NCBI GenBank assembly: GCA_037447655.1
Contig: JBBHKE010002277.1
Coordinates: 151,571 to 215,570, forward strand
Direction of reading: 5' to 3'
From: Zygnema cylindricum
Lineage: Eukaryota; Streptophyta; Zygnematophyceae; Zygnematales; Zygnemataceae
Length of the DNA stretch: 64,000 bases
Position numbers and translations under genes: made by a program. Of this stretch, positions 7,139 through 57,894 are shown piece by piece. Every line of letters starts with the position of its first letter. Within the stretch, counting starts at the first letter, position 1. The notes under the pieces are model-generated. The model was not told the DNA's origin. It ran no database searches and worked only from the letters and a program-made list of their open reading frames with translations.

Positions 7139-7139
7139 C

Positions 7140-10518: not shown

Positions 10519-11565
10519 TGAAACTCTGAGACCTCCATAAGTCCTCAGAGTGGACAGCTTCCAAGAAGCCTCTAGGATAATCCTGACCCCTTTGTGTTTA
10601 AGAAAAAATAACTGCCACCCTAGCAGACAAATACTCTGACCACCTTCACCTTGTGAAGGCAAGACTCCCCTGAGTCGATAGCAAAAAGAATCTCTGAATT
10701 TGCTCCCCTGAGCAGTAAGTTATAGAGGGTCAAAGTTGACCTTTTGTACTGAAGCTCTCTGGGAGAGAGGGTCCTATCTTCTAATTTTTCTAAGTCCTAT
10801 CTCTCTGACATAGTCTATCTACTGAATGTACGGAACCAATCAGAATACAGTTCCGTACGCAAAAGTACAACTGCCGGTGTACTTTATGTAGGGACATTGT
10901 ACGACATGGCCTAAATATCCACACGTGGAATATCCGGATTCGCTCCTTTAATCCTCGGAGATGCCGCGCTCCAATGTAACATCGCCACCTGTCATCCGAT
11001 GTGGCGATGCCCACAAACCGCGAATTCTTCTTCCGCGATCTTGGCGCTAATTCCGGCCGTCCGATTAAACTCGCATTTGATCGTAGCCGTAATAAATACA
11101 TGCGCGGTATTTGTTTCGCTTACGAAATCAATGCGCGGTATTGATTTCTTATCCGTACCGCAATTCGTACTTTTACACTACCATATCTATGTATCTCGTT
11201 AACAGTTATAGTTAAATGATTTATCCTACGTGTACATGTTTAAACCATTATCGTACTATATACTATGTAACACTACTTCTAGACTTAACGGTTAAGGCTA
11301 CCGGCTATCTACTCTTTGACGGCCGGCAGGTACCAGGATGAAATCCTGTCGCCGGCACATACATTTTAGTAATTAATCCCTTGACTAATACAAATTTCCC
11401 GTAAACCTTAGGATAGCCTAAGTAGCCATGGCTCTAGCTTCCTCTCCAATTTCTCAGTGACTGCGACAAGTTTGAGAGTTGGAGAGAAAAGTTATATGTA
11501 GACTCCCTCGGCTTCTTTATTTCTATTCAGACCTAGAAAATACTTAAAAACCATTAATTTCTACA
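10519..11565 (-). repeat. Cop-B 5' LTR
   Basis: 1047 bp, TG...CA, the same length as both LTRs of Cop-A. It contains a GTAC array (10828-10902), the GCGCGGTATTT / TTTCG block near 11103-11145, an antisense tRNA-like segment near 11285-11365 and the CCATGG block near 11428. Confidence 0.9.
10828..10902 (-). promoter_or_regulatory. GTAC array of Cop-B LTR
   Basis: GTAC at 10828, 10855, 10865, 10879 and 10899, i.e. offsets 0, 27, 37, 51 and 71. The sixth site expected at offset 60 reads GTAG. Offsets match Cop-A exactly. Confidence 0.6.
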
Positions 11566-11703
11566 TGGCTAGGACTAAAAACCGCCAAAGCGCCTATTTT
11601 GCAATGTCAGCGCGCATCCTAACTGTCCAATTCAAACCAAATATTAATTTTAGCAATTAAAACAAATGTGCGATGCATTTGTTTCATGCAGTACTTAATC
11701 TAC
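11566..11703 (-). repeat. Copia LTR U3 fragment
   Basis: Shows the ACCGCC...GTCAGCGC and AAACAAATGTGCGATGCATTTGTTTC blocks seen in U3 of the minus-strand LTRs. It directly abuts the Cop-B LTR end and the Cop-H protease region, so it is probably a truncated older LTR. Confidence 0.55.
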
Positions 11704-18624: not shown

Positions 18625-19424
18625 ATATAGGGTGGCAAAGATGCCAATTTATACAAACTCTCAAAGAGAGAGAGAGGTCCATCTACCTGATTTTTCCTAA
18701 GTCCTAGTTCCCTCTCACAACCCCTAACCAATCAGAACACTGCACAGTACCAGAAAGTACTGCTCCCCAATGTACTATCTATACGGCCTCACTACAACAA
18801 GGCTATTAAGCAGACGAAAGTCCACTTTCAGTCATCCGTACGCTCCTCGGAATTCTCGCGACCGAATGTTATCTCTCCACGTGGCGCCAGGTCGTGCCAC
18901 GTCACAAAATGCCAAAGTGAACATTCCGAGATCTCGGTCATGATGTGCTCCGTCATACGAATTTAGTATCTGATCTCAACCGTTTAAAGTAAACGTCTTA
19001 CTAATTTGTTTCGTGCGGAATCCTATCCGCATTGTATTTAACTTGTTCCATGTATCTATGTTTACTTTGCCGTTAATCGGAATTACTACCATTACATTGT
19101 TTAAATATATGTCAAACACTATATACCCTAGCGAACTACTACGACAAACCGGTTAGAGCGAACGGCTACGCCATGCTCTATCGGTCAAAGGTTCGAGTCC
19201 TGCCGGACTCAACCTTTTTGTTGAGAGTGACTTAGGTCACTCTTCAGTCCTGCATAGGTGAAGCTGAGGTAGCCATGGCTTCACTATTCTCTCTCTCTCC
19301 TTGAGTGAGTACAACAAGTATGGGGGATGAAGAGGGAAGGTGGAGGCAGACTGCCTACGCTTGTCACTCTTTTTTATCTATTTAGACCTAGAAATACTAT
19401 TAAAACCTTTAGTTAATTTCAACA
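18625..19424 (-). repeat. Cop-C 3' LTR (truncated)
   Basis: About 800 bp. The 5' end on the minus strand is TGTTGAAATTAACTAAAGG. The R/U5 end is missing beyond 18625. The antisense tRNA-like segment at 19150-19205 is the best preserved in the window. Decayed GTAC sites lie at 18747, 18757 and 18772. Confidence 0.8.
19150..19205 (+). other. tRNA-like segment with perfect box B
   Basis: GGTTAGAGCGAACGG resembles a D-arm/box A and GGTTCGAGTCC (19190-19200) is a perfect pol III box B, about 35 bp apart as in a tRNA gene. It has no proper acceptor stem, so it is not called as a tRNA gene. It runs antisense to the LTR, like its counterparts in other copia LTRs here. Confidence 0.6.
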
Positions 19425-19440
19425 CTCTCATTATTTTCTA
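19425..19440 (-). other. Polypurine tract of Cop-C
   Basis: In element sense AGAAAATAATGAGAG directly precedes the LTR start TGTTGAAATT. This is the plus-strand primer site expected there. Confidence 0.6.
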
Positions 19441-19442
19441 GT

Positions 19443-20271
19443 CTAGTTTTTTTTTTTTTTCAACGCGCATTTTTCCCTACAATACTTTAATTTGGGAGAG
19501 GGCACAGGTTTGGTCATCATGTCAGCAACCATTTCTTCATCAGGTCTATGCACAAGATTCAAAATTTTGTTTTCAACTTTTTCTCTTACAAAGCTCAATC
19601 TTATGTCCATATGTTTAGCTGTGAAATGATGTTTTGGATTGGTTGCAATTTTAATATCAGCTTGATTATCACAAAAGACTTGATGTACTCCCTGCTTTAC
19701 ATACCCCAATTCTTGCAACAAGGATTTCACCCATATCAACTCTTTCACAGCAGAACAAGAGGCCATATACTCAGCCTCCATAATAGACTGAGCAACCACC
19801 TTTTGTTGCTTACTGCTCCAACAGCAAGCACCTTCTTCCACATACAACACATACCCATAAGTGCATCTTTTCATTGGTGCATCTTCTCATGGGTGCATCC
19901 CCATTATTGGCATCACTCCAAGTAGTGATATCAGTGCGCTCCCCTCCGAAATGCAACTATAACTCTCTGGTTCCAACTAGATATATCATGACTCTCTTGG
20001 CTGCCTCCCAGTCTCTCTTTCTAGGATTATTAAGACTCCTACTAAGAACTCCAACTGTTGCCACTATGTTCGGCTTGGTACAATTCATAAAGTATATGAG
20101 ACTTCCTACAACCTGTTTGTAAGGGATAGACTTCATAAACTCTCTCTCCTCTAGACTCATCTGATCATCTAAGATTATCACTCCTCCTTCTACACTCCCA
20201 TCACTTAGTTTCTTCAACTCCATGGGAGTTGTACAACTGTTTGCTTTCTCCATTTGGGAGTTCTCAAGCAT
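19443..20271 (-). pseudogene. Copia RNase H and RT C-terminus
   Basis: Two frames. 20271-19957 has the connection region with CTTPMELKK, SIPYKQVVGSLIYFMNCTKP and VLSRSLNNP. 19874-19443 has RNase H with GACCWSSKQQKVVAQSIMEA (catalytic Glu in MEAEY), FCDNQAD and the C-terminal HMDIRLSFVREKV and MMTKPVPSPKLKYCREKC. A frame break lies at 19875-19956. RNase H removes the RNA strand during cDNA synthesis. Apart from this break it is close to Cop-A. Confidence 0.85.
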
Positions 20272-20280
20272 ATTTCATAT

Positions 20281-21060
20281 TTATTCTTTTTGAGTGAGTC
20301 TAATGATCCTTTTCCCCGTATCTTTTTCCATTTGAATTCCCAAAATATATCTTTCCTCCCCTAAATCCTTGATATCAAATCTGCATCTAAGATCTTTCTT
20401 CAACTTATTTATCTTTTCCAAAGACTTACTTAACACCAGCACATCATCCACATAAATTGCAATAAAGATCACACTATCCTCATCTTCAAACATACATATA
20501 GAATGGTCATAGTTGATCTGGATATATCCTAGACCAGTAAGAAACTCATCTAGTTTCTTATTCCACTGTCGGGGAGCATGTTTAAGTCCGTATAAAGACT
20601 TAATGAGCCCGCAGACTTTGCTCTCTTCCCCATTCTCCGCAAACCCTTCCGGTTGCCTCATGAAGATTTCTTCCTCTAACTCACCATTGAGGAAGGCGGT
20701 CTTATTGTCCATCTGATGTATTTCCATGTTTTCCGCTACTGCTAGACTGAGGAGAATGCTTACTGATGGGAACCGAACAACTGGAGGAAATGTCTCCTTA
20801 TAGTCAATCCCCTCATTTTGGGTGAACCATTTGCTACGAAACGAGCGTTATATCTTTCAATGGTATTATCTGGGTTGAGTTTTAGTTTGAATACCCAATT
20901 ATAGCCAACAGATTTTGTGTCTGGAGGACAATCTGCTGGCTTCCAAATATTTGCTTCCATGATGGAAGCCATCTCATCATTTATGGCTCTAATCCATCTT
21001 TCCTTTTCTGGGCTGTTCACTGCCTCGAAGTATGTTTGAGGCTCATCAAGATGAGACAGC
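20281..21060 (-). pseudogene. Copia reverse transcriptase (Cop-C)
   Basis: The frame 20727-20281 holds the RT palm: HQMDNKTAFLNGELEEEIFM (the first catalytic Asp is kept in MDNKTAF), SLYGLKHAPRQWNKKLDEFL and IAIYVDDVLVLSKS with intact YVDD. The upstream frame (21020-20760) has the fingers region NSPEKERWIRAINDEMASIM and KLKLNPDNTIERYNARFVA. They are separated by a frameshift near 20830. Both catalytic motifs survive although the gene is broken. Confidence 0.85.
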
Positions 21061-22075
21061 TTAGTTACCTTACGAGCAACTTACTTCTCTTGTATCCTTT
21101 TGCTGCTCTTTCTTCGTCCATCAAACTTTGAAGCTTGTATAGAGGGATGTCTTCGGTTTCTCCTTACTATCTCATCGTCTCCCATATCCATGGAAGTCAG
21201 GTCGGTTCCTCCACTTCTATCTCCTCAAAGTCCATAGAAATATGTGAGGTATCTAGAAGCTCTCCTCTATCTTGGATCTCCCTTGAATGTGCAATCACAA
21301 TCTCACTCATGTCGCTTTGGGGAAAAATAGAGTTTTCTTCACTTTCAGACTCAAACCTGATTCTTATTGTTTTGGTATATTTGAAGGGATCAATTTACTT
21401 TCCTTCATCCATGACAACTAGGTGTTTGACCAAAATGATATCTTGCTTTGCTAAGTCATACACTCTGTATCCCTTGACATCCTCATCATATCCCACAAAA
21501 TATCCTGGTTTTCCCTTAGCATGAAGTTTCCACTTTTTCTTATCCGTATCTAGACTGTAAACTTGGATACCAAATATTATAAGGTGAGAGATATCCGTTT
21601 TCCTTCCAACCCATCTCTCATAAGGTGTCATACCTTTGACTTCTCAAGTTAGGACTCTATTCTTAATGTAGTTGACACAGTTCATGGCCTCTTCCCAAAA
21701 TCTCTTTCCTATTTTCTTGTCAGCCAACATACTGCATACACTATCTCCTAGTGTTTGGTTTAACCTCTCAGCTACCCCATTTTATTGCGGATTATGTGGT
21801 ACAGTTTTCTGGTGCTGAACTCCCTCATCTCTCTGGTATTCCTCAAACTAATTAGCGGTATATTCTCCCCCATTATCACTCATTATTCTCTTAATGGGGG
21901 TTGAATGCAACTTCTCACTCCAGGCTTTATATTCTTTAAAGTAAACTGGTGTTTCAGACTTTGTTTTTAGGAAGTAGACTCAAGAATATCTGGACCAGTC
22001 ATCAGTAATTGTCAACATAGACCTCTTCCCTCCAATTGAGGGTACAATTGTTGGTCCCTATATATCTGTGTGGTT
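21061..22075 (-). pseudogene. Copia integrase (Cop-C)
   Basis: The frame 21631-21395 carries the C-terminal part (MTPYERWVGRKTDISHL, GYDEDVKGYRVYDLAKQDII). The core upstream to about 22075 is readable only in pieces: NGVAERLNQTL-like, SDNGGEYT-like and HTDI motifs occur in shifted frames. The interval 21061-21394 is the acidic linker to RT, also broken. It is a non-functional integrase. Confidence 0.75.
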
Positions 22076-22737
22076 TAAATCATGTACCTTCTCCCCTCTA
22101 TATGTGGCGGCTTTAGGAAAAGGAAGTATGTGAGCCTTACCTTGAGCACAACCACTACAATCATCCACCATTTCATTGTCACTGAAATGAATGCCTTCCC
22201 CTACACCAAGCTTTTTAATTTCCCTCAACCTATCAAAATACACATGCCCCAACTGCTTATGCCAAATCATCAACTTTTGGATATCAACATAATAAAAATT
22301 ATTCTTTTCATTACTCAGGTTAAGCCTAAACATTCCTTGGCTACTCTTATCTGCATTAAGTAAACTTTATCCCCATACTTAGATATAAAGACTCCATTTC
22401 TAGTAAAGGTATCAAATTCTTTGTCATCTAACACAGATGTAGAGACAAGATTTTTATTCAGCTGAGGAATATATAGCACATCTGAGAAAGTGAGTATAGA
22501 AGTCTTACCCTCCACTAAGACTTTCAAATCTAATAATCCCACAAGATCTGTAGTAACCACACTCCTATCCCCATACTCTATTTCTACAGTAGAGATTTTC
22601 CTTAGCTTAGTGAAGAGGTCCTTATCACGACACATATACATGGATGCACCTGAGTCGATGATCCATCCTTCCTGTGGAGCTTCCCGAATTGCTCCCAGGG
22701 CACACTTCTCTCTCCGAGGGATCTCCTTCTCCTCCAA
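22058..22737 (-). pseudogene. Copia protease and integrase N-terminus
   Basis: The frame 22737-22315 contains EIPRREKCALGAIREAPQEG and IIDSGASMYMCRDKDLFTKL, an intact DSGAS protease site, then the region up to YIPQLNKNLVSTSVLDD. The frame 22333-22058 gives the zinc module (IWHKQLGHVYFDRLREIKK, DDCSGCAQGKAH). They overlap in different frames, implying a shift near 22330. The protease would cut the Gag-Pol polyprotein. Confidence 0.85.
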
Positions 22738-22776
22738 ACTCTCATCAAGAAGAAGCTCCCCATCCTCCTCATAAGA

Positions 22777-23419
22777 CTAGTCCTCGGTTTCTCCTGTTAC
22801 CTTTGTGAACATAAGTAAGTTTTTCTTCCCTCCGGAAATACCCCTTCCATGGTTCTCTTGGAGCCTCAGCTTCGATAGCTTGACACAATCTACGATAAAG
22901 TGTCCCGGCCTTTTCCAAAAATGACATAGGCCCTTTGGGGACCTTGGTCCTCCAAGCTGAACTCTTTCTCCTTTGTTTAGCTTTTTCGGATCTGGTCTCC
23001 ACCTGTCCTCTCCAGCGGCTAGAGATAAAACACTCTTTCCTCCTCTCCTGATCTCAATCATGTTCTCTTGCACAAGTATCATGTAGACCATTGTATTCCA
23101 ATTCCATGAACTATCAGTCATTTCCTGTACTCGGTACACTATATTCTCATACTCGTCTAGTAACTTCATAATATGAGTGTTAACCTTCATTTTCATTGTT
23201 CTTGTCCATTCAGCACTTTCCATCTCCATATACAAGCAAGAAATATTATTACAGTAGTCTAACATCTTTCCCCTTTTGTAAGTAGAATTTCCCAACTTTT
23301 GCTTTGCCAACTGGAGTTCCTAAATCGTACCAACTCTATAGATCTCTATCAAACTCACCCACAACTCCTCGGCCTTGTAAACGTGAAGGTGGGGAGTTGC
23401 CAAAGTTTGTGTGAGGTGT
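22777..23419 (-). pseudogene. Copia gag, truncated (Cop-C)
   Basis: The frame 23310-22777 has the UBN2-type gag core (MLDYCNNISCLYMEMESAEW, LLDEYENIVYRVQEM) and a zinc knuckle at CHFWKRPGHFIVDC, in which the second Cys is Trp. The N-terminal 200 or so codons are missing: the sequence changes to gypsy LTR at 23420. It is a pseudogene. Confidence 0.8.
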
Positions 23420-23650
23420 TGTCAAGCTCATGTGCTTCTTCAACACATTTGCGCTCCCAATAGATCAGATGCCTCATCCCACCTTGTACAAACTCTAGCG
23501 TACGAAGAAGGGGAGGACAACCAGCCGGATCATATCTTGGTATTTTCACCTTCGAGCACTACGCACTTTAGTTCACCTTAAACAGAGGTCGAACGACGGA
23601 GTTAGTCCGGTGCGAAGGTGTCAACTCCATTACATGGCATCCGTTCTATA
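23420..23650 (+). repeat. Gypsy LTR fragment, U3 start, plus
   Basis: Matches the first 230 bp of the LTR at 7140 in the same orientation: TGTCAAGCTCATGTGC to TATATAGCTCTAG. It is joined head-on to a minus-oriented copy of Gyp-1 3' sequence at 23651. Confidence 0.8.
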
Positions 23651-23848
23651 TAGCTCTAGTGTCGAGCGGGCCTGGGAACCGGGAGGTTCAGGTAAGATGT
23701 CCAAGGAGGTGTGCATGAGAAACCTGCAATCCACCCCAAATGCTGATGCTTCCCCGGATCCGTGACAATGCCCATCTCTGTTCATTACCCCCTCCCCTAG
23801 GGATATGCATAGATAGTAAGGAGGAATGGAGTGGAAAAGAAAAGTACC
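23651..23848 (-). repeat. Duplicate of Gyp-1 3' untranslated segment
   Basis: Nearly identical, in direct orientation, to 24838-25027 (the region just before the Gyp-1 3' LTR). It starts at TCGAGCGGGCCTGGGAACC and ends at GAAAAGTACCCCC. It is placed on the wrong side of the LTR, so it records a rearrangement rather than a second element. Confidence 0.85.
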
Positions 23849-25088: not shown

Positions 25089-25262
25089 TTAGCCGCCAAA
25101 CTCGCAGTCCCTACAGAACCATGGATTTGCGGGTTGAGAGCGGGGCTCACAATTCAGAGGTAGGCAGCAGTCATGCCACCCCTGGTGACAATGTTCACAC
25201 ACCAACAGGATGTTGGGTGCGGAGGACACATGGCAGGCAGAGGAACAGGCTGGAGGGTCTGC
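25089..25262 (-). CDS. PHD finger at the integrase C-terminus (Gyp-1)
   Basis: Reading the minus strand to the TAA at 25089-25091 gives CSSAC, then LLVCEHCHQGWHDCCLP, then PWFCRDCEF. This fits a C4HC3 PHD finger: two cysteine pairs, Trp-His-x2-Cys, then the W-x-C-x2-C ending. PHD fingers usually read histone H3 tails (methylated or unmodified Lys4). It follows the integrase GPY/F-like end and is in a different frame from the main integrase frame, so one or more shifts lie between 25262 and 25622. Gyp-2 has the same domain in the same place, which argues against chance. Integrase tails of chromoviruses carry chromodomains for targeting; a PHD could act likewise. That role is inference. Confidence 0.75.
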   Translation of the reverse strand, partial: ADPPACSSACHVSSAPNILLVCEHCHQGWHDCCLPLNCEPRSQPANPWFCRDCEFGG

Positions 25263-25621
25263 AAAATAAGTGAGGTGGAAAGTGGGTTCATCTTCTTACC
25301 GTCGCAAATGGCAAGGGGCCACATTGATCTAATTTTCTTTAATTTTGCGGCCATCTTTCCCCTCCAAGGTAAGAACCCCTTTGTTTGAGACCTCCACAAC
25401 TTTCAGAATCACCCGTCCGACCGAAATGTCCAAAGAATCCTTCTTCTGTTGCATGCGATACACAAAATCCCTGGGCACAAATCGACCTTGCCGGGGGACA
25501 TAATTGTCGCTCCGTCGTTGGGAATACTAGAGTTGATATTTGTGCTGAGCACCCTGTAAATTGCCCATGGCCAGAGGTATTTCCCGCTGAAATACCTTAG
25601 CCCGGTCAGCAATCAGTTTTT
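25263..25621 (-). pseudogene. Integrase C-terminal (GPY/F-like) region, broken
   Basis: Pieces in two frames match Gyp-2: one containing YFSGKYLWPWAIYRVLSTNI, another with KVVEVSK-like then GKMAAKLKKI. The comparison suggests an ancestral run through a PGDFVYRMQ-like module and a KEN-Q-I-N segment into the PHD finger. Frameshifts break it in this copy. Confidence 0.6.
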
Positions 25622-28069
25622 CTATAGTACCTGGTTGTCCATCTCCGGAAGAACAACCGCCTGAGCCGATGCAGCCCCTGGTAGGATGGGATGTCGGCCA
25701 AGGAGAATGAAGTAAGGGCTATAGGAGTGGAGAGAAGCCTGCCTGCTGAACCTGTACCCCATGGCAATCCAAGGCACCCGTGTGTCCCACTCCCCCAAAT
25801 CCTCTTCAACCGCATAATTCGGTAGTGACCGCTTCACTGTCTGTAGGCACCTCTCGGCCAAGCCGTCGGCTTGGGGGTGGTCTCGGCTGGTTAACCTGTG
25901 GTCAATGAGGCACTTCTCCAAAAGGTTAGAAAATTCTCCGGCAAACTCGGACCCCTGATCCGTCAGAACTTCGGCCGGTGCTCCAAATTGAGACAACACT
26001 CTTTGCAAGAATGCGTCCGCGATTGCTTTGGACTCCTTTTGGGGAAGAACCACCAATTCAATCCACTTTGAGAAGTGTTCAATCATGACCAGAACAAAAC
26101 GGTTCCCCCTCCGGCTAGTGGGAAGTGGTCCTAGCAGATCTAGTGACCATCTGTAAAACATCCCCCGGATGGGGAGGGAGTGAAGCTCAGTTCCACCCTT
26201 TTTGTCAAAAGCTGCTTTTACCCTGTAACAGGAAGGGCACGTTTGCACCACACGATTGACCTGGGCCCGCAACCCATGCCACCAATACGACCTTGTGACT
26301 GGCGAGGTGGTTTGTTTTTGTCTGAAGTGCCCGCATTCCTGGTGAAGCCTAACAATGAGCGTTTCCCGATCTGTTGGAGGAGGAACCACTTTCCTCGTCC
26401 CATCAGCCCATTTCCGGAGAAGGATGCCTCGGTCCCATTCATAAGCCGCCATTTGGTTCTGAACACGGGACAATTGACTTCCGGCAAGGTGGGATAGAGG
26501 AGAGCCTTTCTGGATAGATTGGAGGGAATTGCTGTCATTCCATATATCTTTCCGGCCGGCTCCAATGGGGGCTTGCCCCTCTATATCTGCAGCAAAAGTT
26601 GACAGTTTTCCTTCGGCCCGAGGCAGCCAAATAAAAGCAGAGGAAGCTCGGATAAGTCCCAGGCTGAGCTCAGGGTCTTCGTCATGTGGCGGCCCAGTAG
26701 AGTCTCTGGTGAAAGGGTCCGGATTCCTGCTGAGTCCGTCGGCATTCCCATGAATCTCCCCGGCTCTATGGATGATGCTGAAATCATATTCCTGCAAGAT
26801 GAGAACCAATCTGGCCAGCTTTCCAGTCAATTTACTATTCTCTATGATCCATTTGAGGGGTTGGTGATCCGTAATAAGGGTGAAGTGTACTCCATAGAGG
26901 TAAGGCCGGAAGTGCTGGATGGCCCAAACCGCGGCGAGTAATTCCCCATGGTAACTGCTGTAATTCCCCTCGGCTCTGTTATTACTCCGGCTTGCGTAGG
27001 CAACTACATACTCAGCCCCTGCGTTGTCCAATTGAGCCAAAACTGCTCCCAATCCGAACCTGCTCCAATCTGTATAAAGGAAAAAAGGCCCCTGGTTATC
27101 GGGCATCCGGAGCACAGGATGCTGTATGAGGGAATCCTTCAGGAATTGGAACGCTATCTGCTGTTTTTCCTTCCACTGCCACTCCTGGTCCTTTCGCAAC
27201 AATTGGTTTAATGGCTGAGCGTGGCAACTGAATTCAGGAATAAACCGCCGGTAATAGTTGGCAAGGCCCAGAAAAGTATGAAGAGCAGAAATGTCCTGCG
27301 GGGGTGGAAGAGCGTCTAGGGCTGCCATCTTAACCATGTGGGGACCCACTGTCCCGGGAGTCACCTCATGACCCAGATAAATAATTTTCTGCACCCCAAA
27401 GATGCCCTTCCCCGGGTGACACTTCAAGCCCGCTGCTTGGAGTGCCCGGAGAACGATCTGTATGTGCTCCAAGTGTTCTTCAAATGTCTTCGATAAAATG
27501 ATAACATCGTCGATATAACACCGTGAGAAATTAATTCCCTGGAGAGCCTCGTCCATGGCCCGTTGGAATTTGGCAGGTGCATTCTTGAGGCCAAATGGCA
27601 TGTACAGCCATTCATATAGCCTGGATCCGGCCCAAAAAGCAGTCCTCTCTCGGTGTTTCGGCTCCATTACAATCTGGTGGAATCCATTTTTCATATCCAA
27701 AGTAGAGTAAATGGTAGCCCCAGCAAGAGAGTCGAAAATATCTTCCGGGGTAGACATAGGATAACGGTCGGAGACAGTCGCCGCGTTGAGCATCCGATAG
27801 TCCCCACACATCCGGAAATCTACAGTTTTTCCGGAGGAGTCTTTCTTTGGCGGGAGCACGGTTGGTGAGGCAAACCCATGTAGGCCTGTACTCTCCTGAA
27901 CCAGCCAAGCTTCCACCAAAGTCTGCACCTTTGAAGTGGTGAACTCCTTCTCTTTGAAATTGAGAGGGTACTTTTTCTGCCAAACAGTAGCCGTCTCGTC
28001 GATCAGGTCAATCCGAAAAGGAGTTCCCATATAGATCCCTACATCTGTGTCAGACCAGGCGAACACCTG
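25622..28069 (-). CDS. Gypsy reverse transcriptase, RNase H and integrase
   Basis: An 814-codon open frame, the longest in the window. RT (about 15-240) has STLDMKNGFHQI, YMPFGLKNAPAKFQRAMDEA and YIDDVII at 184-187. RNase H (about 320-445) has catalytic Asp 333 (YTDWSRFGLG), Glu 375 (HGELLAA), Asp 400 (ITDHQPL). Integrase has the HHCC zinc module (His575, His580, Cys610, Cys613) and a D-D-34-E triad at Asp643 (SLDLLG), Asp703 (VLTDQGSEF), Glu738 (GLAERC). All catalytic residues are present. The frame is the same as the methyltransferase upstream; only a TAG at 28070 separates it from the linker. The listed start is simply the first codon after that stop; the protein is part of a polyprotein. 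Confidence 0.93.
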   Translation of the reverse strand, partial: QVFAWSDTDVGIYMGTPFRIDLIDETATVWQKKYPLNFKEKEFTTSKVQTLVEAWLVQESTGLHGFASPTVLPPKKDSSGKTVDFRMCGDYRMLNAATVSDRYPMSTPEDIFDSLAGATIYSTLDMKNGFHQIVMEPKHRERTAFWAGSRLYEWLYMPFGLKNAPAKFQRAMDEALQGINFSRCYIDDVIILSKTFEEHLEHIQIVLRALQAAGLKCHPGKGIFGVQKIIYLGHEVTPGTVGPHMVKMAALDALPPPQDISALHTFLGLANYYRRFIPEFSCHAQPLNQLLRKDQEWQWKEKQQIAFQFLKDSLIQHPVLRMPDNQGPFFLYTDWSRFGLGAVLAQLDNAGAEYVVAYASRSNNRAEGNYSSYHGELLAAVWAIQHFRPYLYGVHFTLITDHQPLKWIIENSKLTGKLARLVLILQEYDFSIIHRAGEIHGNADGLSRNPDPFTRDSTGPPHDEDPELSLGLIRASSAFIWLPRAEGKLSTFAADIEGQAPIGAGRKDIWNDSNSLQSIQKGSPLSHLAGSQLSRVQNQMAAYEWDRGILLRKWADGTRKVVPPPTDRETLIVRLHQECGHFRQKQTTSPVTRSYWWHGLRAQVNRVVQTCPSCYRVKAAFDKKGGTELHSLPIRGMFYRWSLDLLGPLPTSRRGNRFVLVMIEHFSKWIELVVLPQKESKAIADAFLQRVLSQFGAPAEVLTDQGSEFAGEFSNLLEKCLIDHRLTSRDHPQADGLAERCLQTVKRSLPNYAVEEDLGEWDTRVPWIAMGYRFSRQASLHSYSPYFILLGRHPILPGAASAQAVVLPEMDNQVL

Positions 28070-28489
28070 CTAGTTCTCTTCTAACAGCTTGGAGAGCCGG
28101 GCATTATGCTGTGGGTCTAGCTGTTCACCTAAAGTCCAGTCCATCTTCTCGGGTTCCACTGCTGCGAATGCTTCCGGTGGTCTCCCGAAGAGAGAGATGT
28201 CGAAGTTCAGCTCTACTAGTGGGTCTGTCCTTAGTTCGGCTGTTAAAACGCTGCTGCTGACAACATCCTCTAGGCTGTCATGTTCTGAGACTCTGTTCCC
28301 CCCCACTAAGGAAACTCCTGGGCCCAGTGTGCCATTGCTCCCCTCCACTGAGGAAGTTCCTGGGAATTTGGTGAATGTGAATTTTTCCCTCCTTGTCTCT
28401 CTCCCCCCCTCAAGCTTTAGAGTTGCTTGCATGGCCAACAAGTGTGGAGCTTGAAGGTATGTTGTCTGTGATTGTGCAGACTCAAGGCT
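28070..28489 (-). pseudogene. Linker between methyltransferase and RT
   Basis: About 140 codons in the common frame between the methyltransferase C-terminus and RT, with acidic and serine-rich sequence (EDVVSSSVLTAELRTDPLVE, then DWTLGEQLDPQHNARLSKLL). Gyp-2 preserves the second part (45566-45981), so it belongs to the RT side. The TAG at 28070-28072 replaces an Arg codon found in Gyp-2. No domain is recognised. Confidence 0.7.
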
Positions 28490-29611
28490 TGAGAATGCAA
28501 GAGAATGTTTCAGCACCTAGGAAATTGCATTTAAATCCATGCTTTGTCTGATTAAACTGCACCTTTTTGAAGCCGATACCCCTGGCGCAGCTGTGGTTCC
28601 CTGTTGAAACCCCATTGCTTGTTCCCGTTCTGTAATATTCAGCGCTGTCCACGTGGCGGTTGTACTGTCAAAGATCATTCCTGGTGCGCCCTTCCGGTAA
28701 GCGTGGCTGTTAGGAAAAGATACCAGAGTTGGGAGGGCCCTCCGTGGATACCCAGGCTTATTACAACAGAAGAAGGGTGCTTTGTTGGCTGTGATCACCG
28801 GCGTGGCCATTCGCCCCGGTCCGTGAATCTATTGGACCGTGATGTTGGGATCCGTAACCTTTGTTCTCAACAGCTGTTGGAGGATTGGAAGAGGAATCAA
28901 GTTGGTCCAATATGCCCAAACTCTGTGGGCTCTCGATCCGATCTGAGCTGCATCAAAAACTATGGGAGTCCTTAGAACCTTGGTCACTTGGTTCCAGCTG
29001 TTGACCACCTGTTTTCTCTTATCATCCGTGGGGTGAACGTTTTCCAAGACGTACCCCACTGGTGTGTCCTGGCATTCCTGTAACCCTGTTATTAGTCTGG
29101 TCATTTGGAAGAAAGTTCTGCTACGGACGTCATGGTGTCCTCGGCCCTGTCTTGCTAACGAATACCCCTGGCATGGCCATCCAGCGACCACAAGGTCTAC
29201 CTTTCCGAGCTTTTCCAGATGGGACTCCGTGATATTATCCACATTCTGGGGAAGCGTGCGATGAGAGTTAGACATGGCGGACACCGGGAGTTGTTGTGGT
29301 TAAAGTTGGTGCAGCTGTTGCAGGCGGTACTCACTGACTGCACGGGCGTCCGGGTCAATCTCGACTGCCGAGTAAGTTTCTATTTGGTATCCAGCTTTCA
29401 GGACGGCTTCCAGATCGGAACTAATGCCAGAAAATAGGGATAGAATCCTAAGTCCTGAAAGCGGGATTTGTAGTGACACCACTTGTCGATTAAAGTCTTT
29501 CCCTTTGTTAGAAACCGTTGGAAGTTCCGACCGGGAGACTTTTGCTGCTCCGGATGATATTGCAGCCAAGCTCCTGTCCACTTCGTGCCGAAGTGTGGCC
29601 ATCTGTACCAA
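28490..29611 (-). pseudogene. C5 cytosine DNA methyltransferase domain (DNMT3-like)
   Basis: Three consecutive open stretches in one frame. The first (29611-29300) has motif I, LRILSLFSGISS (SAM binding), and motif II, AVEIDPDARAV. The second (29284-28829) has motif IV, DLVVAGWPCQGYS, with the catalytic Cys codon at 29171-29173; motif VI, YVLENVHP; and motif VIII, AQIGSRAHRVWAYWTNL. The third (28810-28517) has the target-recognition and C-terminal part, GMIFDSTTATWTAL, ITEREQAMGFQQGTT and RCSLIRQSMDLNAIS, continuing to about 28490. These are the ordered motifs of C5-MTases. The DAxxxxxxHRxxYW-like motif VIII and the ERExxxGF ending favour a DNMT3-type relative, though the active site is PCQ as in bacterial and DNMT1-type enzymes. 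In-frame stops at 29300 (TAA), 28829 (TAG) and 28517 (TAG) disable this copy. It methylates cytosine in DNA if intact. It sits in the same frame as protease and RT, so it was made as part of the polyprotein. Confidence 0.9.
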
Positions 29612-29961
29612 TCGGTTCTGATACTCCCTTTCCCACCGCTTGGAAATAGGGAATTGCTAGATAGAATCAGCGATATCGTTAGAGTATTTGAACAGCTCCG
29701 AGGGGGTTGAGGCAGAGTAGACGGGATAGCATCCAGACACCGAACAGTCGTTTTTCACCGGTTCCACAAATCCAAGGGGACCACCACTTTTGTTCCTTCC
29801 GGATCCTCAGGGTCTGAGACTGTAATTTGTTCCTTCCATACACTCAACTCCATGTTCAACCTTGTCCACGTAGCCATACCCAGCAAAATTTCAAATTGCT
29901 TACCTTCCACCACTAGGAAGGGAAGCCGAATCTGCACGTGCTGGCCTGCGTCGTCAGCAAA
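29612..29961 (-). repeat. Duplicated protease tail and pre-methyltransferase linker
   Basis: 29659-29961 is an imperfect direct copy of 30482-30786 (offset 823-824 bp). It encodes the protease C-terminus (QIRLPFLVVEGKQFEILLGM) and the linker ending in YSNDIADSI, then, uniquely here, QFPISKRWEREYQNRL into the methyltransferase. This copy keeps Trp (TGG) where 30588 has TAG, but has a 1-bp deletion near 29743 and a TAG near 29660. The linker continuity proves that protease and methyltransferase were once in one frame. Confidence 0.8.
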
Positions 29962-30482
29962 TGTAGATAGCGTACGGCTGGTATGCCTCCGTACGTTCAG
30001 TAGTGAGCTCTAGTTTACATTTGTAGGACTTAGTCATTTTAAGACATAGGGAACTTTCTGTACCAAAAACTGTTTATGGTCATTTTTGGAAATTTTGTCT
30101 GAGTATTGCACTCAGATCTGTTGGCAAAATTATGTGAAATTTTGCGTGTATGTTCTTCCTTCTATTGTATACCTTGCTACAGATTTGCAGACCTATTGTG
30201 TGCCTGGTCTGTGTGTAAATATATTGTGAAGTTGTCAGTTTTATCAGAGTTCTGGCAGACTGTTTTTCTGCAACTTTGACTAGATGATGTGATCGCTCTT
30301 TTTATTATTTTTGTCTGAAACTTTGTGAGGATATTTAATAGCCTAAAAACAATCTCTCTTTAGAGTTTCAGATTGGTTTATTATTTCTGTAGAATTCTGT
30401 GTTGATTCAAAGTAGGCTGTTTTTGGGTAGTTTGTGGTGCTTCCGAGGGTAAATCCATGGCTGAAAATGGCTATGGACAACA
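29962..30482 (+). repeat. LTR insertion between duplicated Gyp-1 segments
   Basis: About 521 bp, TGTAGATAGCG... to ...CTATGGACAACA, matching in inverse orientation the LTR-like sequences at 51917-52445 and 54687-55164. It contains GTACGGC-type motifs at its start and an ATG at 30457 near its end (reading MAENGYGQQ). It has no 5-bp target duplication; instead 300 bp of Gyp-1 is repeated on both sides. Confidence 0.75.
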
Positions 30483-30956
30483 GATAGAATCAGCGATATC
30501 GTTAGAGTATTTGAACAGCTCCAAGAGGGTTGAGACAGAGTATACCGGATAGCATCCAGACACCGGAACAGTCGTTTTTCCCCGGTTCTACAAATCCAAG
30601 GGGACCACCACTTTTGTTCCTTGAGGATCCTCAGGGTCTGAGACTGTAACTTGTTCTTTCCATACGCTCAACTCCATGTTCAACCTTGTCCACGTAGCCA
30701 TACCCAGCAAAATTTCAAATTGCTTACCTTCCACCACTAGGAAGGGAAGCCGAATCTGCACGTGCTGGCCTGCATCGTCAGCAAATTCGATTTCCATGGC
30801 TTTTATGATCCCATATACTGGTTGGCTGCCACTGCTGACTGTGCTCAAGCATATGTTACTTGGACTGATTTTTGGCCGGAGTTCCTCGGGCATTTGTTGT
30901 AACGCTGATGTAGTTATTAAGTTTGGAAGAGCTCCGGTATCCACCACTGCATCCTA
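30483..30956 (-). pseudogene. Gypsy aspartic protease (Gyp-1)
   Basis: The frame 30947-30588 starts right at the active site: VVDTGALPNLITTSALQQM (DTGA), then the flap region with GSQPVYGIIKAMEIEF and the ending LGMATWTRLNMELSVW. Size (about 120 residues) suits a retropepsin. Two adjacent TAG codons at 30954-30959 cut it from the upstream linker in the same frame, and TAG at 30588 cuts it from the next domain. It would process the Gag-Pol polyprotein, releasing the methyltransferase as a separate product or leaving it fused. Confidence 0.85.
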
Positions 30957-32125: not shown

Positions 32126-33232
32126 TTCCGAAAGCATTGCCTTTCTTTATGGCCCATGAACCCACAAGCTACACATTTTGACCCTTCAGTAGTATACTTC
32201 CCCCTTAGCTCATTAGAGATTTGAGCGTCATCGAATTTTGGAAGTCGGATTTGTCTCAACTAGGATTGAGACATTTTGACGGTTTCAGAGCGTGGAGTAG
32301 GTTAATAGGTTTCCTTAGTGACCGGGGTTCGGTCTCCTCCTCCGCTTCCTTGTTGGCGTTCTTGCTGTTTCCTTGTTCTTTCCGCACGCTCCCTCTCAAA
32401 CTCTTTCTGCTTGATGGCGAGTTATGGTTTAAGCTTTCGAGGGCACCTCTTCCATCCGTGACCGGGCTGGTTACAGTTCACACAGTCGTAAAGAAAAACT
32501 TTTTCATCTCCCCCCATTGCAGGTTCTGGTCGGGCATCCACTTCCTGTTTCCCCTTAAGCTTCCGCAAAGCTTGCAGTTCTGTCTGTTCGTCGTGTCTGA
32601 GCGATGTTTCCCCGGCGAAACCTGCAAAGTTGGCTCTGGATTTCCCGATAATAGCCTTTTCTCGTGCCTCGCTATTAACAAAATGATCATACAATTTCAT
32701 AGCTGCCAATGAAATTTCTTGAGCTGTGGGATTCCGATCATGTATAGTTTGACTGGCACTCCAATTGTCCAGAGCTGCCTGTCCCGTTGGCCCGAAGGAA
32801 TTTCGAACAGCGACGTAATATTTGGTGGCCATAGCCGGTGTATCGATGGTGGACAGTTTGGTCTTCTGGCAGAGGATGGAGAGGCGGTTGAACAACGTCT
32901 GGGGAGTTTCATTCTTCAAACAGCGGAAGTCTGTGAACTCCTTGATGGGAGTTTCGTTCCTTTCTGTGTAAAAGAGTCTCCAAGCGTCGAGAAGAGTGGT
33001 ACAGGGATTAGGATTGGCAACCATCCGGGTGGCCGCTTCCGCCGCCTGTACAGCCTGAAGGTGGTTGACATAGGCCCTGCCTTGGGCCTGAAGTTTCATA
33101 TCCATGGTGAAAGTGGGGTGAGAGGAGCTGCGGCTGTGGCAGCCACGTTGGTTGCTGCCTGAAGAGCCTCGGCGTCCAGAGCCGGATCCGATATTTTGAT
33201 ACTAGGGCCCTCAACAAAGGTTGACGCTCCTT
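32126..33232 (-). pseudogene. Gypsy capsid and two zinc knuckles (Gyp-1)
   Basis: The frame 33105-32422 encodes the capsid-like part (LLDAWRLFYTERNETPIKEF, LFNRLSILCQKTKLSTIDTP, EISLAAMKLYDHFV) and a first CCHC knuckle (CVNCNQPGHGWKRC). The frame 32259-32126 gives a second (CVACGFMGHKERQC). Capsid and nucleocapsid roles (particle assembly, RNA packaging) follow from the family. A frameshift near 33110-33230 separates it from the N-terminal region. Gyp-3 has the same arrangement. Confidence 0.85.
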
Positions 33233-35584: not shown

Positions 35585-36781
35585 TTTTAGTATTGTGCTA
35601 CTTCGCTGGAAGCCCACGAAATGCCACACTCCCAACTACTCTCCAAAGAATAGGAAGGAAATGAGAGTCGTCCGATCCTTTCCGCAAAACTCCGGACAAA
35701 CCCAAAGATGACCACAAGAGTGTGCAAATAACTCCCACGCAGAAATATAGAAATAACAAATATCGGCTTTTCAGATTAAACAATATCACCTTGCCCCAGA
35801 GAATGGAATTATAGATAGAAATGAATGATAATGGTGAAGCGAATTCACATACCCCGGAGTGCAACGATGACCAAACTCAGCAGAAGAAAACCTCTCCCAA
35901 TGGCCCCGAAGTTAGGTATGAGTCTCCCTCAACCCTCTCGGTTCACCCGCAACGATCCGACAAGACTCTTCTTAGTTTCAAACAACGAAAGTCCAAACCG
36001 CCCAAAGAGGAGATAGTGCCAACTACCCACCCGTGCTACGGTCTCCACAAAAGACAATCCAAAACAAAGATGGCAATAGAGTCAACGACAAAATGCAACC
36101 GTTCTCCAACAGAAAGATTGATTTAATTCTCTGGGGGTTTTCTCAGGGGACAGTACTGAAAAAGCAACCTGTCTCCTTCGGCCCCAAGTGCCTTATACAA
36201 CCAGAGTTTGTCCTACTGCAAGTTCCAAAGTCAAAGCAATGTGACAAGCAAATCAGCGGTCAGCCATTGTTATCGTACATACATAAGACCAAACAGACTG
36301 TACTACACTCAGGGCTAAAAGTTAGACGACTGGTCCCGGGTGGATTAGCGGTCGAGGGTCCTCCTATAATACAGAAAATGGAAACAAAGTTATGACTCGA
36401 CGTGAAACCGCCTAACTTTGACCCAAAGTCATTAATGCTTGGCCCGGCTGTTGGGCCTAAACTAACATCCTACTAACAGTTAACAGTAGGATCTACGGGA
36501 TAATCCCAAAGGTTACGTGTCGTTCTCTAATGTATCCCTCTACTAGAGCTACATAGAACACACAATATAATGGAGTAGATGATTTGCACCGGACTAACTC
36601 CGCCGTTCGGCCTCCGTTTCAGGTGAACTAAATTGCGTAGGGCTCCAGAAGTGAAAATATAAAGATCTGATCCGGCTAGTTGTCCTCTTCCTTCTCCATG
36701 CGCTAGAGTCCGTACAAAGTGGAATGAGGCCCCGGAACACTTGGGATTGCAAATGTGCCAACGATGCACACGAGCTTGACA
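35585..36781 (-). repeat. Gyp-1 5' LTR
   Basis: On the minus strand it starts TGTCAAGCTCGTGTGC at 36781 and ends near 35585, based on where similarity to the 55190 LTR stops (GTAGCACAATACT / GAAGCACAGTATT). Length is about 1.2 kb. The exact U5 end and primer-binding site are uncertain. It inserted next to, or was joined to, the Cop-D RNase H at 36782. Confidence 0.8.
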
Positions 36782-38151: not shown

Positions 38152-39546
38152 TGCTCTGCCAAGTACCTTTGAAACTAATCTTGGTTGCTCCTTTTCTCCT
38201 TTTCCAATGCTTATTTTTCTAGCCTTTTTTCTTTTTCCGCTATATATTTTTTGAAGCCTAGTGGAAGTTTCTTGGTTGCCAGGAGTGGTGGTTTTGTGGG
38301 TTTGATCTCGAGGTCTATCTCTTGGTTCACAATATCTGCCCTGGGAGTAAAATATAATGGTCCGGTGGCCTTTCGGTTATGGTCCCCTTTGGCCATTTTT
38401 TGTCTGTTCTTCCTCTGCTCCAAGGTGGTAGGACAAAGTTATCTGCGACTATCTCCTACACCCAAATTCCAGGCTCCGCAGAAAAAGGTTCGTGCATGGT
38501 GAGCTTAATGGGGTCCCAAATTCCAACCCATTACATCATCATCATCCCCACCCTTTTTGGTCTGCAGCTTAAGCTCTGCAAGCTTTTGCAATAATTCCTC
38601 TTTCTGTCGCTGGAGTTTCTGTGTTGCTGTCAGAGGGGAGGTTTTGAAGCGGAGGGCAGCCAATTCTAATGCCATGGCGGCCAGTTGCTGACTTTGCTGC
38701 TGAATAATACTCTTTGGTGTGAGCGTTGGCGGGTTTGGAGGTGGCTCCGGTGTTTCAGTCGTGGGCTAAACGACGCCCCAATGGGAAGAAGAGCTAAAGA
38801 GGGAGAGTATTGATCGCGATTTGTCCTTCTCCAGTGAACAAGGTGAATTGCATCATTTCTTTCGGTACCCAATTTTTGCGAAAGAATTCTTCTTCTTAGT
38901 GTCCCATGAAGCCGCAGGCGGAACACTGCGTACCTTCGGTTGTGTATTTTCCCGTGAGTTCGTTGGACACCCAAGCATCATCAAATTTTGGCAGTTTTAT
39001 CTACCTCATCTGTGATTGAGATATTTTAGGGGTTTCACATCGAGGAGTTGGGGGGTAATTCTCCTTGGTTACCGGTGTTTTGTCCCCTTCTCCTTGTTTT
39101 TTCTCTTGTTGCCTACGCGTCCTTTCGGCTCTTTCTTTCTCCCACTCTTTTTTTGGAGTGCGAGTTTTGGTTTGAGTTTCCGGGGGCAGCGTTTCCACCC
39201 GTGGCCAGTTTGTTGGCAATTCAGGCAATGAAACAAAACTATCCTGTCATCAGCCCCCATGGCTTGTTGTGATCCGCTATCAACTGCATGTTTGCCTTTA
39301 AGCTTCCACAAAGCTTGAAGTTCGTTTTGTTCCTGCTTGCTTAAAGAAGTTTTTCTTGCAAACCCGGTGAAGTTTGCTTTGGTCTTGTCGGTGACAGCCT
39401 TTTCCCGAGCCTCGCTGTGGAAGAAATGGTTGTACAGTTTTATGGCTACGAGGGAGATTTCCTTAGCCGAGGGATTACTGTCCTAGATTGCTTGCCATGC
39501 AATCTAATTATCCACAGCAGTTTGTCCTGTAGGTCCTAACAAATTT
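38152..39546 (-). pseudogene. Gyp-3: gypsy gag fragment
   Basis: Minus-strand frames match Gyp-1 gag: 39311-39069 has the first CCHC knuckle (CLNCQQTGHGWKRC) and a basic tail. A degraded second knuckle region lies near 38900-38990. A coiled coil (ATQKLQRQKEELLQKLAELK) lies around 38560-38640. 38423-38211 has NRKATGPLYFTPRA. It stops at the Cop-D LTR (38151) and the Cop-E LTR (39547), which flank it on both sides. About 70% similar by eye to Gyp-1, so it is an older or different subfamily. Confidence 0.8.
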
Positions 39547-39699
39547 TGTGATGAAAAAGGTATTTTATAGTTTGTCCGTTTTGGTGGTCCAAAATACTTC
39601 TCGTGGTCACTGAGGACTAGCAGGCAGCCATGGCTGTCTCATGCAGGTAAGGAGACAGAGTAGAAGCTTTAGTTTCATGCAAGCCTTAGGCGGTCCCTA

Positions 39700-42412: not shown

Positions 42413-42709
42413 GTGGAGCGTGCCTGATTAACGTGAGGGAAGGGCCCAAAGCCCGGAGCCGTCGGCATAAGAGTCCTACAAATAAACCTCGAATGCGAAT
42501 GCTCCCCAAAATGATGATCATGCCCACTGCTGCCCAAATCTCACCCATAGATATGCATGCAAAATATGAGAGATGCTTCGACAGGGAATAGGGATGAGCG
42601 AAGGGGAAGGCGAAAGTTATCCCCTCCCCCTTCCTTCCCCCCCCCTGGCCGGGGAAAGGGATTTAGGTCTCGGTAATCGGACTGATATCCCAATTTCCCC
42701 CCCTTTTAG
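42413..42709 (-). other. Gyp-2 3' untranslated region with polypurine stretch
   Basis: Non-coding. On the minus strand a G/A-rich run (GGGGGGAAGGAAGGGGGAGG) lies around 42625-42650, a candidate polypurine tract, although 200 bp remain to the LTR. A hydrophobic frame at 42548-42315 is not supported as a gene. Confidence 0.5.
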
Positions 42710-42930
42710 TCAACCGTGACTAAGATATAAAAACATTTGCTCGCTCCATTCGCAGTTCTCACATAACCATGTGCTGGAGGGTAGAGGGTGTGGCACCCTA
42801 GAGGAGGGGAGACAGGCTGAATGCCAACACTGACCGCACTGATTGCAGACCACTATGTCGTGTAGCAAGAGGACTGAGTGGAAGCTGATGAACAGGAACA
42901 AGGATCGGCAAAGGAAGTTAAATGGAAAGT
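42710..42930 (-). pseudogene. PHD finger (Gyp-2)
   Basis: Minus strand: FADPCSCSSAS in one frame, then after a 1-bp shift DIVVCNQCGQCWHSACLP and WLCENCEW. This is the C4HC3 pattern with Trp-His-x2-Cys and W-x-C-x2-C, the same layout as Gyp-1 at 25089-25262. The residues between the motifs differ widely while the metal ligands are kept, which suggests past selection on the fold. The frameshift makes this copy inactive. Confidence 0.75.
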
Positions 42931-44060
42931 GGGTTCGTCTTCCAATCCCCGAAGATGGCAGGGGACCACATTAATCTGATTCTCTTTAATTCGTTGACCA
43001 TCCTTTCCCTCTAATGTAAGAACCCCTTTGTTGGATACTTCAACCACTTTCAAATTACCCTCCCAGCAAAAATATCCAGCGTGTCCTTCTTCTGTTGCAT
43101 CCGATATACAAAGTCCCTGGCATAAATCGCTGCTGTCGGGGAACATAATTCGGGCTCCAGCGTTGAGAATACCACAACTGATCTCGGTGTTGAGCCGCCT
43201 GCAAATTTCCCATGGCGAGAGGCATCTCTCGGTGGAATATCTTGGCTCTATCGGCGATCAGGTTTTCAAAAATCCCCTTGGCATCTATCTCCGCCAAGAC
43301 CACCGCTTAGGCGGATGCAGTCCCGGGCAAGATGGGATGTCGTCCAATTAGAATGAAATAACAGCTATAGAAGTGGAGAGAAGCCTGCCTGCTGAATTTG
43401 TAACCCATAGCAATCCAAGGCACTTTTTTGTCCCACTCCCCCAAATCTTCTTCAACTACATATTTTCGTAGTGACCGCTTCACTGTCTGTACGCACCTTT
43501 CGGCCAAACCGTCGGCTTGAGGGTGGTCACGGCAGGTCAGCCGATGGTCGACTAGGCATTTTTCCAAGAGGTTGGAAAATTCTCTGGCAAATTCGGAGCC
43601 TAGGTCGGTTAGAACTTCCGCGGGCGCCTTGAATTCGGCTAAAACCCTTTGCAAAAAGGCATCTGCATTTGCCTTGGACTCCTTCAAGGGCAACACCACC
43701 AACTCGATCCACTTGGAAAAATGTTTTATCATGACCAGCACGAAACGGTTCCCCCGCCTGCTGGTCGGAAGAGGTCCCAAAAGATCCAACGACCACCGAT
43801 AAAACATCCCCTAGATAGGAAGCGAATGAAGCTCAGTCCTGCCCTTTTTGTCAAAAGTTGCCTTAACTCGATCTCATGAGGAGTAAGTCTGCACAATTTG
43901 GTTGATTTGGGTCCGCAACCCATGCCACCAATAGTAGCCCGTAACCAGGGAAGTGTTCCGCTTTTGCCCAAAATGTCCACATTGCCAATGGAGGTTACAA
44001 ATCAGAGATTCTCGGTCATAGGGGGGAGGAACCACTTTCCTCATGTCGTTGGCCATTTCC
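42931..44060 (-). pseudogene. Gyp-2 integrase (downstream copy)
   Basis: Frames 44056-43874 (zinc module: NLHWQCGHFGQKRNTS, YYWWHGLRTQINQIVQTYSS, where the first Cys is lost to Tyr), 43807-43307 (core: Asp in SLDLLGPLPTS, Asp in VLTDLGSEFARE, Glu in GLAERCVQTV) and 43303-43055 plus 43146-42931 (C-terminal region with GVLTLEGKDGQRIKENQINV). All three DDE residues remain, but frame breaks separate the parts. Confidence 0.85.
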
Positions 44061-44850: not shown

Positions 44851-45829
44851 GTTAAAGGGCTGGGCGTGACTACTGAACTCGGGGATAAACCACCGATAAT
44901 AATTGGCCAGACCCAGAAAGTGCGAAGTGCTAAGATATCATGTGGTGGGGGAAGAGCGTCAAGGGTTGCCACCTTGACAATGTGGGGACCCACAGTCCCG
45001 GGCGTCACCTCATGTCTGAGATTAATGATTTTCTGTACCCCAAAAATACCTTTGCCCGGGTGACATTTCAAGCCCGCTGCTTGGAATGCACGGAGAACGA
45101 TCGGAACTTGCCCCAGGTTTTCCTCAAAAGTCTAAGAGAAGATAATAACATCATCAATATAGCACCGGGCACAATCGATTCCTCGGAGCGCTTCGTCTAT
45201 TGCCCGTTGGAATTTGGCCGGTGCATTCTTAAGCCCGAAGGGCATGTAAATCCATTCAGAAAGTCAGGAACCAGCCCAAAATGCAGTTTTTTCACTGTGC
45301 TTCCGTTCCATGGCAATCTGGTGGAAACCATTCTTCATGTCCAGGGTGGAATGGTTAGTGGCACCAGCAAGAGAGTCGAATATCTTTTCCAGAGTCGGCA
45401 TCAGGTACCGGTCAAGATGGTGGCCGTGTTCAGCATGCGATAATCTCTGCGTATCTGGAAATCTACAGTCTTCTCGGACGAGTCCTTCATGGGAGGGAGA
45501 ACTGTCATGGAAGCGAACCCATGAAGTCCGGTACTTTTCTGAACCAATCTGGCTTCCACCAACGTTTAGACTTTAGCCGTGATGAATTCCTTTTCCTTGA
45601 AATTGAGAGGATACTGCTGGTGCCAAACAGTGGCCGTCCCGTCGATCAAATCGATTTGGAAAGGTGTTCTTTTGTAAATATCGACATCTGTTTTTGACCA
45701 TGAGAACACCTGCCTGTTTTCGGCCAATAGTTCGGAGACCCGCGCCTTCTGCTGAGGATCTAACAACTCCCCTAGTGTCCAATCCCCCCTAGTGTCTAAT
45801 CCATTTTCCCGGGCTCTAGAGCAGCCCAA
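44851..45829 (-). pseudogene. Gyp-2 reverse transcriptase (downstream copy)
   Basis: 45829-45566 has the pre-RT linker and fingers (TLGELLDPQQKARVSELLAE, QIDLIDGTATVWHQQYPLNF). The palm reads in pieces; YIDDVII is encoded around 45146-45166. 45071-44851 has the thumb (MKCHPGKGIFGVQKIINLRH). Multiple stops. RT copies the element RNA; dead here. Confidence 0.8.
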
Positions 45830-45981
45830 GCCTCCGGCTATCTACCTCTTGGTTAATGTCAAATTCCAATTCTATCGGTGGATCTGCCTCTACCCTTCCG
45901 GCTATGACTCTACTACTGACAACTTCCGCTAAGCGGTCGCCATCTGAGCCATTGCCCCCCCCCCCACCGGGAAAACTTGCG
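45830..45981 (-). pseudogene. Pre-RT linker fused to upstream integrase
   Basis: The frame 46460-45816 runs from integrase (SLHFYSCYFIL) straight into ASFPGGGGGNGSDGDRLAEV and VVSSRVIAGRVEADPPIELE. The latter matches the Gyp-1 linker that precedes RT. The junction near 45981 marks the duplication breakpoint. It lies just inside the linker, so the methyltransferase was not carried along. Confidence 0.75.
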
Positions 45982-50610: not shown

Positions 50611-50623
50611 AAAATAAGGGGAG
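50611..50623 (+). other. Polypurine tract of Cop-F
   Basis: AAAATAAGGGGAG lies between the pol stop codon (50608-50610) and the LTR. It is identical to the tract of Cop-A on the other strand (57882-57894). Confidence 0.8.
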
Positions 50624-55164: not shown

Positions 55165-55189
55165 AACTAACAAAAAGAATAAGTGAGGA

Positions 55190-57881: not shown

Positions 57882-57894
57882 CTCCCCTTATTTT
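57882..57894 (-). other. Polypurine tract of Cop-A
   Basis: AAAATAAGGGGAG in element sense, immediately after the pol stop codon (57895-57897) and before the LTR. It primes plus-strand DNA synthesis. Confidence 0.85.

Follow-up and report, generated by a model that had tools for sequence, protein, structure and literature searches.

A degenerate Ty3/Gypsy retrotransposon of Zygnema cylindricum with a DNMT3-like methyltransferase domain in its Pol region

Introduction

DNA methylation is a main weapon of the host against transposons, and an element that carries a methyltransferase (MTase) of its own reverses the usual picture. Retrotransposon-borne DNMT3 enzymes, a rare combination, are on record for charophytes and dinoflagellates (PMC5890265, PMC12344493). 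According to the main text of de Mendoza et al. 2018, the KnitGypsy-Dnmt3 elements of Klebsormidium nitens carry intronless Dnmt3-type MTases in the Gypsy Pol open reading frame (ORF) with Ka/Ks <0.2, and their repeats are arranged as in DIRS elements, in the order A-coding-B-A-B (PMC5890265). The present analysis concerns a window of 64,000 nucleotides from Zygnema cylindricum (NCBI GenBank assembly GCA_037447655.1, contig JBBHKE010002277.1, positions 151,571 to 215,570 of the forward strand), the minus strand of which holds a broken Ty3/Gypsy element with a DNMT3-like MTase domain in its Pol region.

In a yeast assay described in the same main text, two MTases of SymbioDIRS-Dnmt3 produced CG methylation, and methylation of the cDNA after reverse transcription was proposed by the authors (PMC5890265). 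Sarre et al. 2025 mention DNMT3 embedded in retrotransposons of the LTR Copia and DIRS families (PMC12344493). These two papers were the only relevant sources returned by a literature search for further DNMT-carrying Gypsy elements, a search that reached few papers of subscription journals. A preliminary description of the window, made from its letters, had named such captures in charophyte gypsy elements and in dinoflagellates, and both precedents proved to be real (PMC5890265). The Zygnema locus is probably a dead copy of a Ty3/Gypsy family in which Pol comprised protease, DNMT3-type MTase, reverse transcriptase, RNase H, DDE integrase and a likely PHD finger, flanked by split direct repeats in the order A-coding-B-A-B, and in whose intact relatives the MTase would methylate the cDNA or the insertion site.

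Results and Discussion

The methyltransferase domain

A C5 cytosine MTase domain of DNMT3-like type occupies positions 28517-29656 of the minus strand, on which the other coding features and the terminal repeats of the element also lie. Two internal stops divide it into open pieces at 29656-29300, 29299-28829 and 28828-28517, all three in the same frame, and a third stop closes it. The middle piece matched PF00145 in Pfam with an E value of 5.2e-11, its 43 bits exceeding the cut-off of 22, and a PDB sequence search with it gave DNMT3A chains at 1.2e-9. Neither outer piece alone matched Pfam; the first resembled DNMT3A weakly, at E values from 0.13 upwards, and for the last no MTase was among the PDB matches listed. 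The joined stretch, 380 residues with TAA and TAG translated as Q, was matched by PF00145 at 2.8e-11, by DNMT3A at 4e-13 with residues 69-283 covered (PDB search), by PHROG 116 ('DNA methyltransferase') at 1e-21 and by NCBIfam TIGR00675 at 2.1e-13, the last under that model's cut-off. Counted over 380 codons, 3 stops occur in the MTase frame, the last of them closing it, whereas the remaining five frames contain 17, 17, 13, 10 and 15. The domain is genuine and lies well beyond what chance would produce. The preliminary description had placed an MTase at 28490-29658 on the minus strand and had named the lack of a significant methylase profile match as grounds for abandoning it; the profile searches and the ordered motifs bear the claim out.

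The conserved C5-MTase motifs stand in the order I, IV, VI, VIII, IX-X, numbered by the usual scheme. Motif I (LSLFSGIS, 29420-29443), motif VIII (SRAHRVWAYWTN, about 28901-28936) and motifs IX-X (about 28523-28630) were read from the sequence, while the active-site motif IV (PCQ, 29168-29176) and motif VI (ENV, 29036-29044) were identified from both sequence and alignment. The profile match combined with the ordered motifs I, IV (PC), VI (ENV) and VIII places the domain among the C5 cytosine MTases of PF00145, and among solved structures in the PDB the DNMT3 family was the best match by both sequence and fold. Identity with DRM, the rearranged DNMT3 of plants, can be excluded since the motif order from I to X is unpermuted. 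A 156-aa piece of the MTase yielded one viral-contig relative only, HhaI-like by PDB search; this relative aligns over 39 residues, and an HhaI-like identity was discarded. The suggestion that PCQ marks a new lineage, also made in the preliminary description, has to be given up, as PCQ was found in 6/6 phage relatives chosen without the PCQ pattern; its occurrence in 53/53 relatives of alignment A2 is uninformative because a PCQ pattern had been used in searching for these.

Position of the domain within Pol

Downstream of the MTase, a linker of 148 residues (28070-28516, an open piece) continues in the same frame to an open Pol ORF of 815 aa (25622-28069), in which Pfam matches were obtained for reverse transcriptase (RVT_1, 1.2e-27), RNase H (RT_RNaseH, 1.2e-33), a zinc-binding H2C2 domain (Integrase_H2C2, 7e-13) and the DDE integrase core (rve, 3.7e-12). 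The common frame of MTase, linker and reverse transcriptase to integrase is seen directly from 29656 to 25622, interrupted by stops alone. Upstream, an aspartic protease (DTGA, 30588-30953) lies in a different frame from the MTase. It matched PF13650 at E=2e-4, with 22.4 bits just under the cut-off of 24.3.

Protease and MTase are separated by a 305-bp duplication, R, and a 519-bp insert, S. The R copy adjoining the MTase (29659-29962) represents the end of the protease region and is 95.4% identical to the copy adjoining the full protease (30482-30786). A peptide ending SNDIADSI is read in the protease frame in the latter copy, and in the MTase frame, directly before the MTase, in the former. 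Because this peptide joins both frames across the R copies, protease and MTase can be linked in one reading direction. The MTase is thus read as part of Pol, by the common frame downstream and by the R-copy peptide upstream. Insert S (29963-30481) is a dispersed repeat with stretches of 79-80% identity at 51918-52437 and 54688-55168; in R-S-R (29659-30786) a piece of the protease region stands doubled around it.

Of the preliminary account, the DNMT3-like fold with a PCQ active site inside a Ty3/Gypsy Pol region is upheld by the PDB matches, motifs and Pol domains. Its single ancestral frame stands for MTase, linker and reverse transcriptase, RNase H and integrase, but not for the protease, which is joined to them only through the two R copies. 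Placement between protease and reverse transcriptase was also put forward there as a lineage mark, and finds no support: the main text on KnitGypsy-Dnmt3 does not contain the word protease and does not give the position of the MTase relative to it (PMC5890265).

Elsewhere in the window, gypsy pieces at 42.7-48.6 kb retain Pol and part of the linker (in a second gypsy copy the linker homologues lie at 45716-45932) and are broken off before the MTase region. Fourteen dN/dS comparisons were made, with matches on the opposite strand or under 50% identity excluded. The 9 pol comparisons with other copies gave dN/dS of 0.045-0.215 at dS of 1.0-2.9, which is close to saturation; dS was uncomputable for 4 (gag, p_30957 and two linker pieces), and the protease row (0.378), which runs into insert S, was unused. 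A scan of viral contigs with the 815-aa Pol ORF yielded no relative.

Class of the element and its terminal repeats

The element was assigned to Ty3/Gypsy with a DDE integrase because its Pol has RVT_1, RNase H, H2C2 and rve domains; the Pol order of protease, reverse transcriptase, RNase H and DDE integrase is that of Ty3/Gypsy, allowing for the protease match just under its cut-off. The DIRS class was ruled out, since rve is present and no phage-integrase (tyrosine recombinase) match was found in the 15 ORF pieces scanned. A gag-like ORF (32422-33201) with a CX2CX4HX4C zinc knuckle, recognised by eye, gave no Pfam match and has a homologue at 39168-39587 (58.6%).

In the direction of the element the repeats follow the order A1 (36781-35794), coding region, B1 (25026-24837), A2 (24834-23848) and B2 (23849-23660). 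A1, at the 5' end of the element, is 96.7% identical to A2 over 988 columns; B1 is 98.4% identical to B2, at the 3' end, over 190 bases. The start of A (GTCAAGC) and the end of B (GCTCGAC) are imperfect inverted copies of one another, and the B1/A2 junction consists of the 3' end, AGCT and the 5' start. The start of A is favoured as the true 5' end because a further A copy in the window, at 7130, starts at exactly that base.

Within the 5' terminal repeat stretch, the final 185 bp (35610-35794) are 98.9% identical to 8118-8302, compared with about 85% for the adjoining 988 bp, and the two parts of 35610-36781 and 7130-8302 seem to differ in history.

A candidate PHD finger

Downstream of the integrase, positions 25089-25295 encode a likely PHD finger, a borderline call made from a sub-threshold PF00628 match, from PDB PHD fingers matching at 5.7e-6 and 1.8e-5, and from a visible Cys4-His-Cys3 zinc-ligand pattern. 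The finger is partly kept in the second gypsy copy (42700-43000, minus strand), where the C-x2-C, H, C, W-x-C-x2-C part stands in one frame and the first cysteine-pair stretch in a different one. No description of a PHD finger after a Gypsy integrase was found in the literature searched, which again took in few papers of subscription journals, and the PHD passages met there concern host genes.

The ADD domain is PHD-like and reads histone H3. A pairing of a writer with a reader in the Zygnema Pol, if real, may be likened to animal DNMT3, in which the catalytic domain stands beside this PHD-like domain. Both PWWP and ADD domains occur in animal DNMT3s (PMC12344493). Such a pairing in one Pol would be notable if true, and the candidate finger is a concrete handle on whether elements of this kind possess it. 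It is conceivable, if doubtful, that this Gypsy family combined in one polyprotein a writer of DNMT3-like type with a histone reader, the PHD finger, and, with its split repeats, would pick chromatin and deliver already methylated copies there, in a transposable element (TE)-rich host outside both lineages known so far.

State of the copy and alternative explanations

Stops close the MTase pieces at 29300, 28829 and 28517 and the linker at 28070, with one more just upstream of 29656. Residues were compared with 53 relatives (alignment A2) hand-picked from 160 loci, mainly on score and ORF length (35/80 viral, 18/80 genome). At alignment positions D76, R247, G370 and N371 the Zygnema domain has S, W, R and Q, and the residue set of an active enzyme is incomplete. 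On the evidence of the stops, the frame break and the lost conserved residues, the copy is judged dead and unable to give a working enzyme.

Several observations weigh against the reading of the locus as a family with a functional MTase. The motif I aspartate that is replaced by S is present in 52/53 relatives, the second arginine of motif VIII that is replaced by W in 53/53, and the motif X residues GN, here RQ, in 52/53 (G) and 49/53 (N). With a single MTase copy in the 64-kb window, there is none to compare for selection on the MTase. The PF00628 match to the candidate PHD finger (E=1.3e-4) reaches 22.4 bits, under the cut-off of 24. Inspection of the proposed ends by eye revealed no target-site duplication. 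In the published assays the MTase of K. nitens was inactive in yeast, a result termed inconclusive by the authors in the main text (PMC5890265).

In view of the missing target-site duplication, the layout may instead be that of a plain LTR element whose end was rearranged; an inverted copy of the opening 240 bases of A, 81% identical and directly beyond B2 (23660-23420), may likewise be cited for this. This inverted copy (23420-23660) could be either part of the element end or a remnant of an older element in the opposite orientation. A chance insertion, in which this one gypsy copy received a processed host DNMT gene that never functioned in Pol, would account for the single, broken MTase copy and for the disturbed stretch represented by R-S-R. 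It is nevertheless improbable, since the MTase shares its frame with the linker and reverse transcriptase to integrase, the peptide preceding it is read in the protease frame where R occurs a second time, which indicates reading from protease into MTase, and a Gypsy family with the same combination and repeat layout has been published (PMC5890265, main text).

The MTase could also have been derived from a DNMT3-like enzyme of phage or bacterial type and not from a eukaryotic Dnmt3 gene. The strength of the PHROG 116 match, the PCQ and WTN residues as found in phage enzymes, and the top identity among 57 rows, 35.5% over 155 columns to a viral contig (DNMT3A 28.7%, DNMT3C 29.4%), are in keeping with this origin. 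Against it, motif VIII reads AHR as in DNMT3A, with H at that position in 2/53 relatives, and the relatives were chosen with the PCQ pattern in a comparison without plant, algal or protist Dnmt3. The tree, in which the same groups are absent and animal Dnmt3 is represented by two rows only, decides nothing, as the window row stands on a branch of 4.37 outside every starred set. On balance this origin is considered unlikely. Least probable of all is that the domain acts on RNA inside the particle, by methylating it or by binding the genome RNA, and does not methylate DNA, a role raised by de Mendoza et al. for LINE elements and compatible with the inactivity of both K. nitens and LINE MTases on yeast DNA (PMC5890265, main text).

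Proposed role of the methyltransferase

Given a dead copy of a Ty3/Gypsy family with the MTase in Pol, as proposed here, the domains, their order, the common frame and the repeats are read directly from the DNA, and we infer from them that intact relatives would make the MTase as part of Pol. The enzyme would be packaged with the other Pol products and travel in the particle with the new cDNA, where it might methylate CG sites of this cDNA, or else the DNA flanking the insertion. The new copy would then enter the nucleus resembling host DNA, or would soon be set in a tolerated chromatin state, and the PHD finger may help to choose target chromatin. Packaging with methylation of the cDNA or the insertion site would be the most likely function in intact relatives because of the position in Pol, the SymbioDIRS assays and the DNMT3-like fold.

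Surroundings of the element

Nested copia-like elements with long open pieces lie at 8201-11573, 19267-23418, 48614-51691 and 56835-63288, and are mutually up to 92-98% identical over long stretches, pointing to a TE-rich genome with recent copia activity. Overlapping direct self-matches at 1-565 resemble a degenerate tandem repeat.

Comparison with known systems

As an enzyme, the Zygnema MTase resembles the catalytic domains of DNMT3A and DNMT3B, its best PDB matches by sequence and fold, and shares their motif order. It differs from them in having PCQ for PCN, about 29% identity and the loss of the second arginine of motif VIII, and a scan of 15 ORF pieces revealed no neighbouring ADD or PWWP domain. 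With the DNMT3-like phage and bacterial MTases of PHROG 116 it shares PCQ, the motif order and 24-30% identity (alignment A2); those enzymes are encoded by free-standing genes, whereas here the domain would form part of a Pol protein.

Among retrotransposons, SymbioDIRS-Dnmt3 of Symbiodinium likewise combines a Dnmt3-type MTase with reverse transcriptase in Pol and has split repeats, but is described in the main text as a member of the DIRS class with a tyrosine recombinase, in contrast to the rve (DDE) integrase of the present element (PMC5890265). KnitGypsy-Dnmt3 agrees with the Zygnema element both in carrying a Dnmt3-type MTase in the Gypsy Pol ORF and in the A-coding-B-A-B repeats, and differs in that the present copy is broken and encodes a likely PHD finger downstream of its integrase; the main text on KnitGypsy-Dnmt3 makes no use of the word PHD (PMC5890265). 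By its predicted domains the element belongs to a known kind, that of DNMT3-type MTases in Gypsy Pol. It is perhaps of the same lineage as KnitGypsy-Dnmt3, the match being one of domain capture and repeat layout. The recurrence of so unusual a repeat layout in another member points to a persistent lineage and not to a one-off accident.
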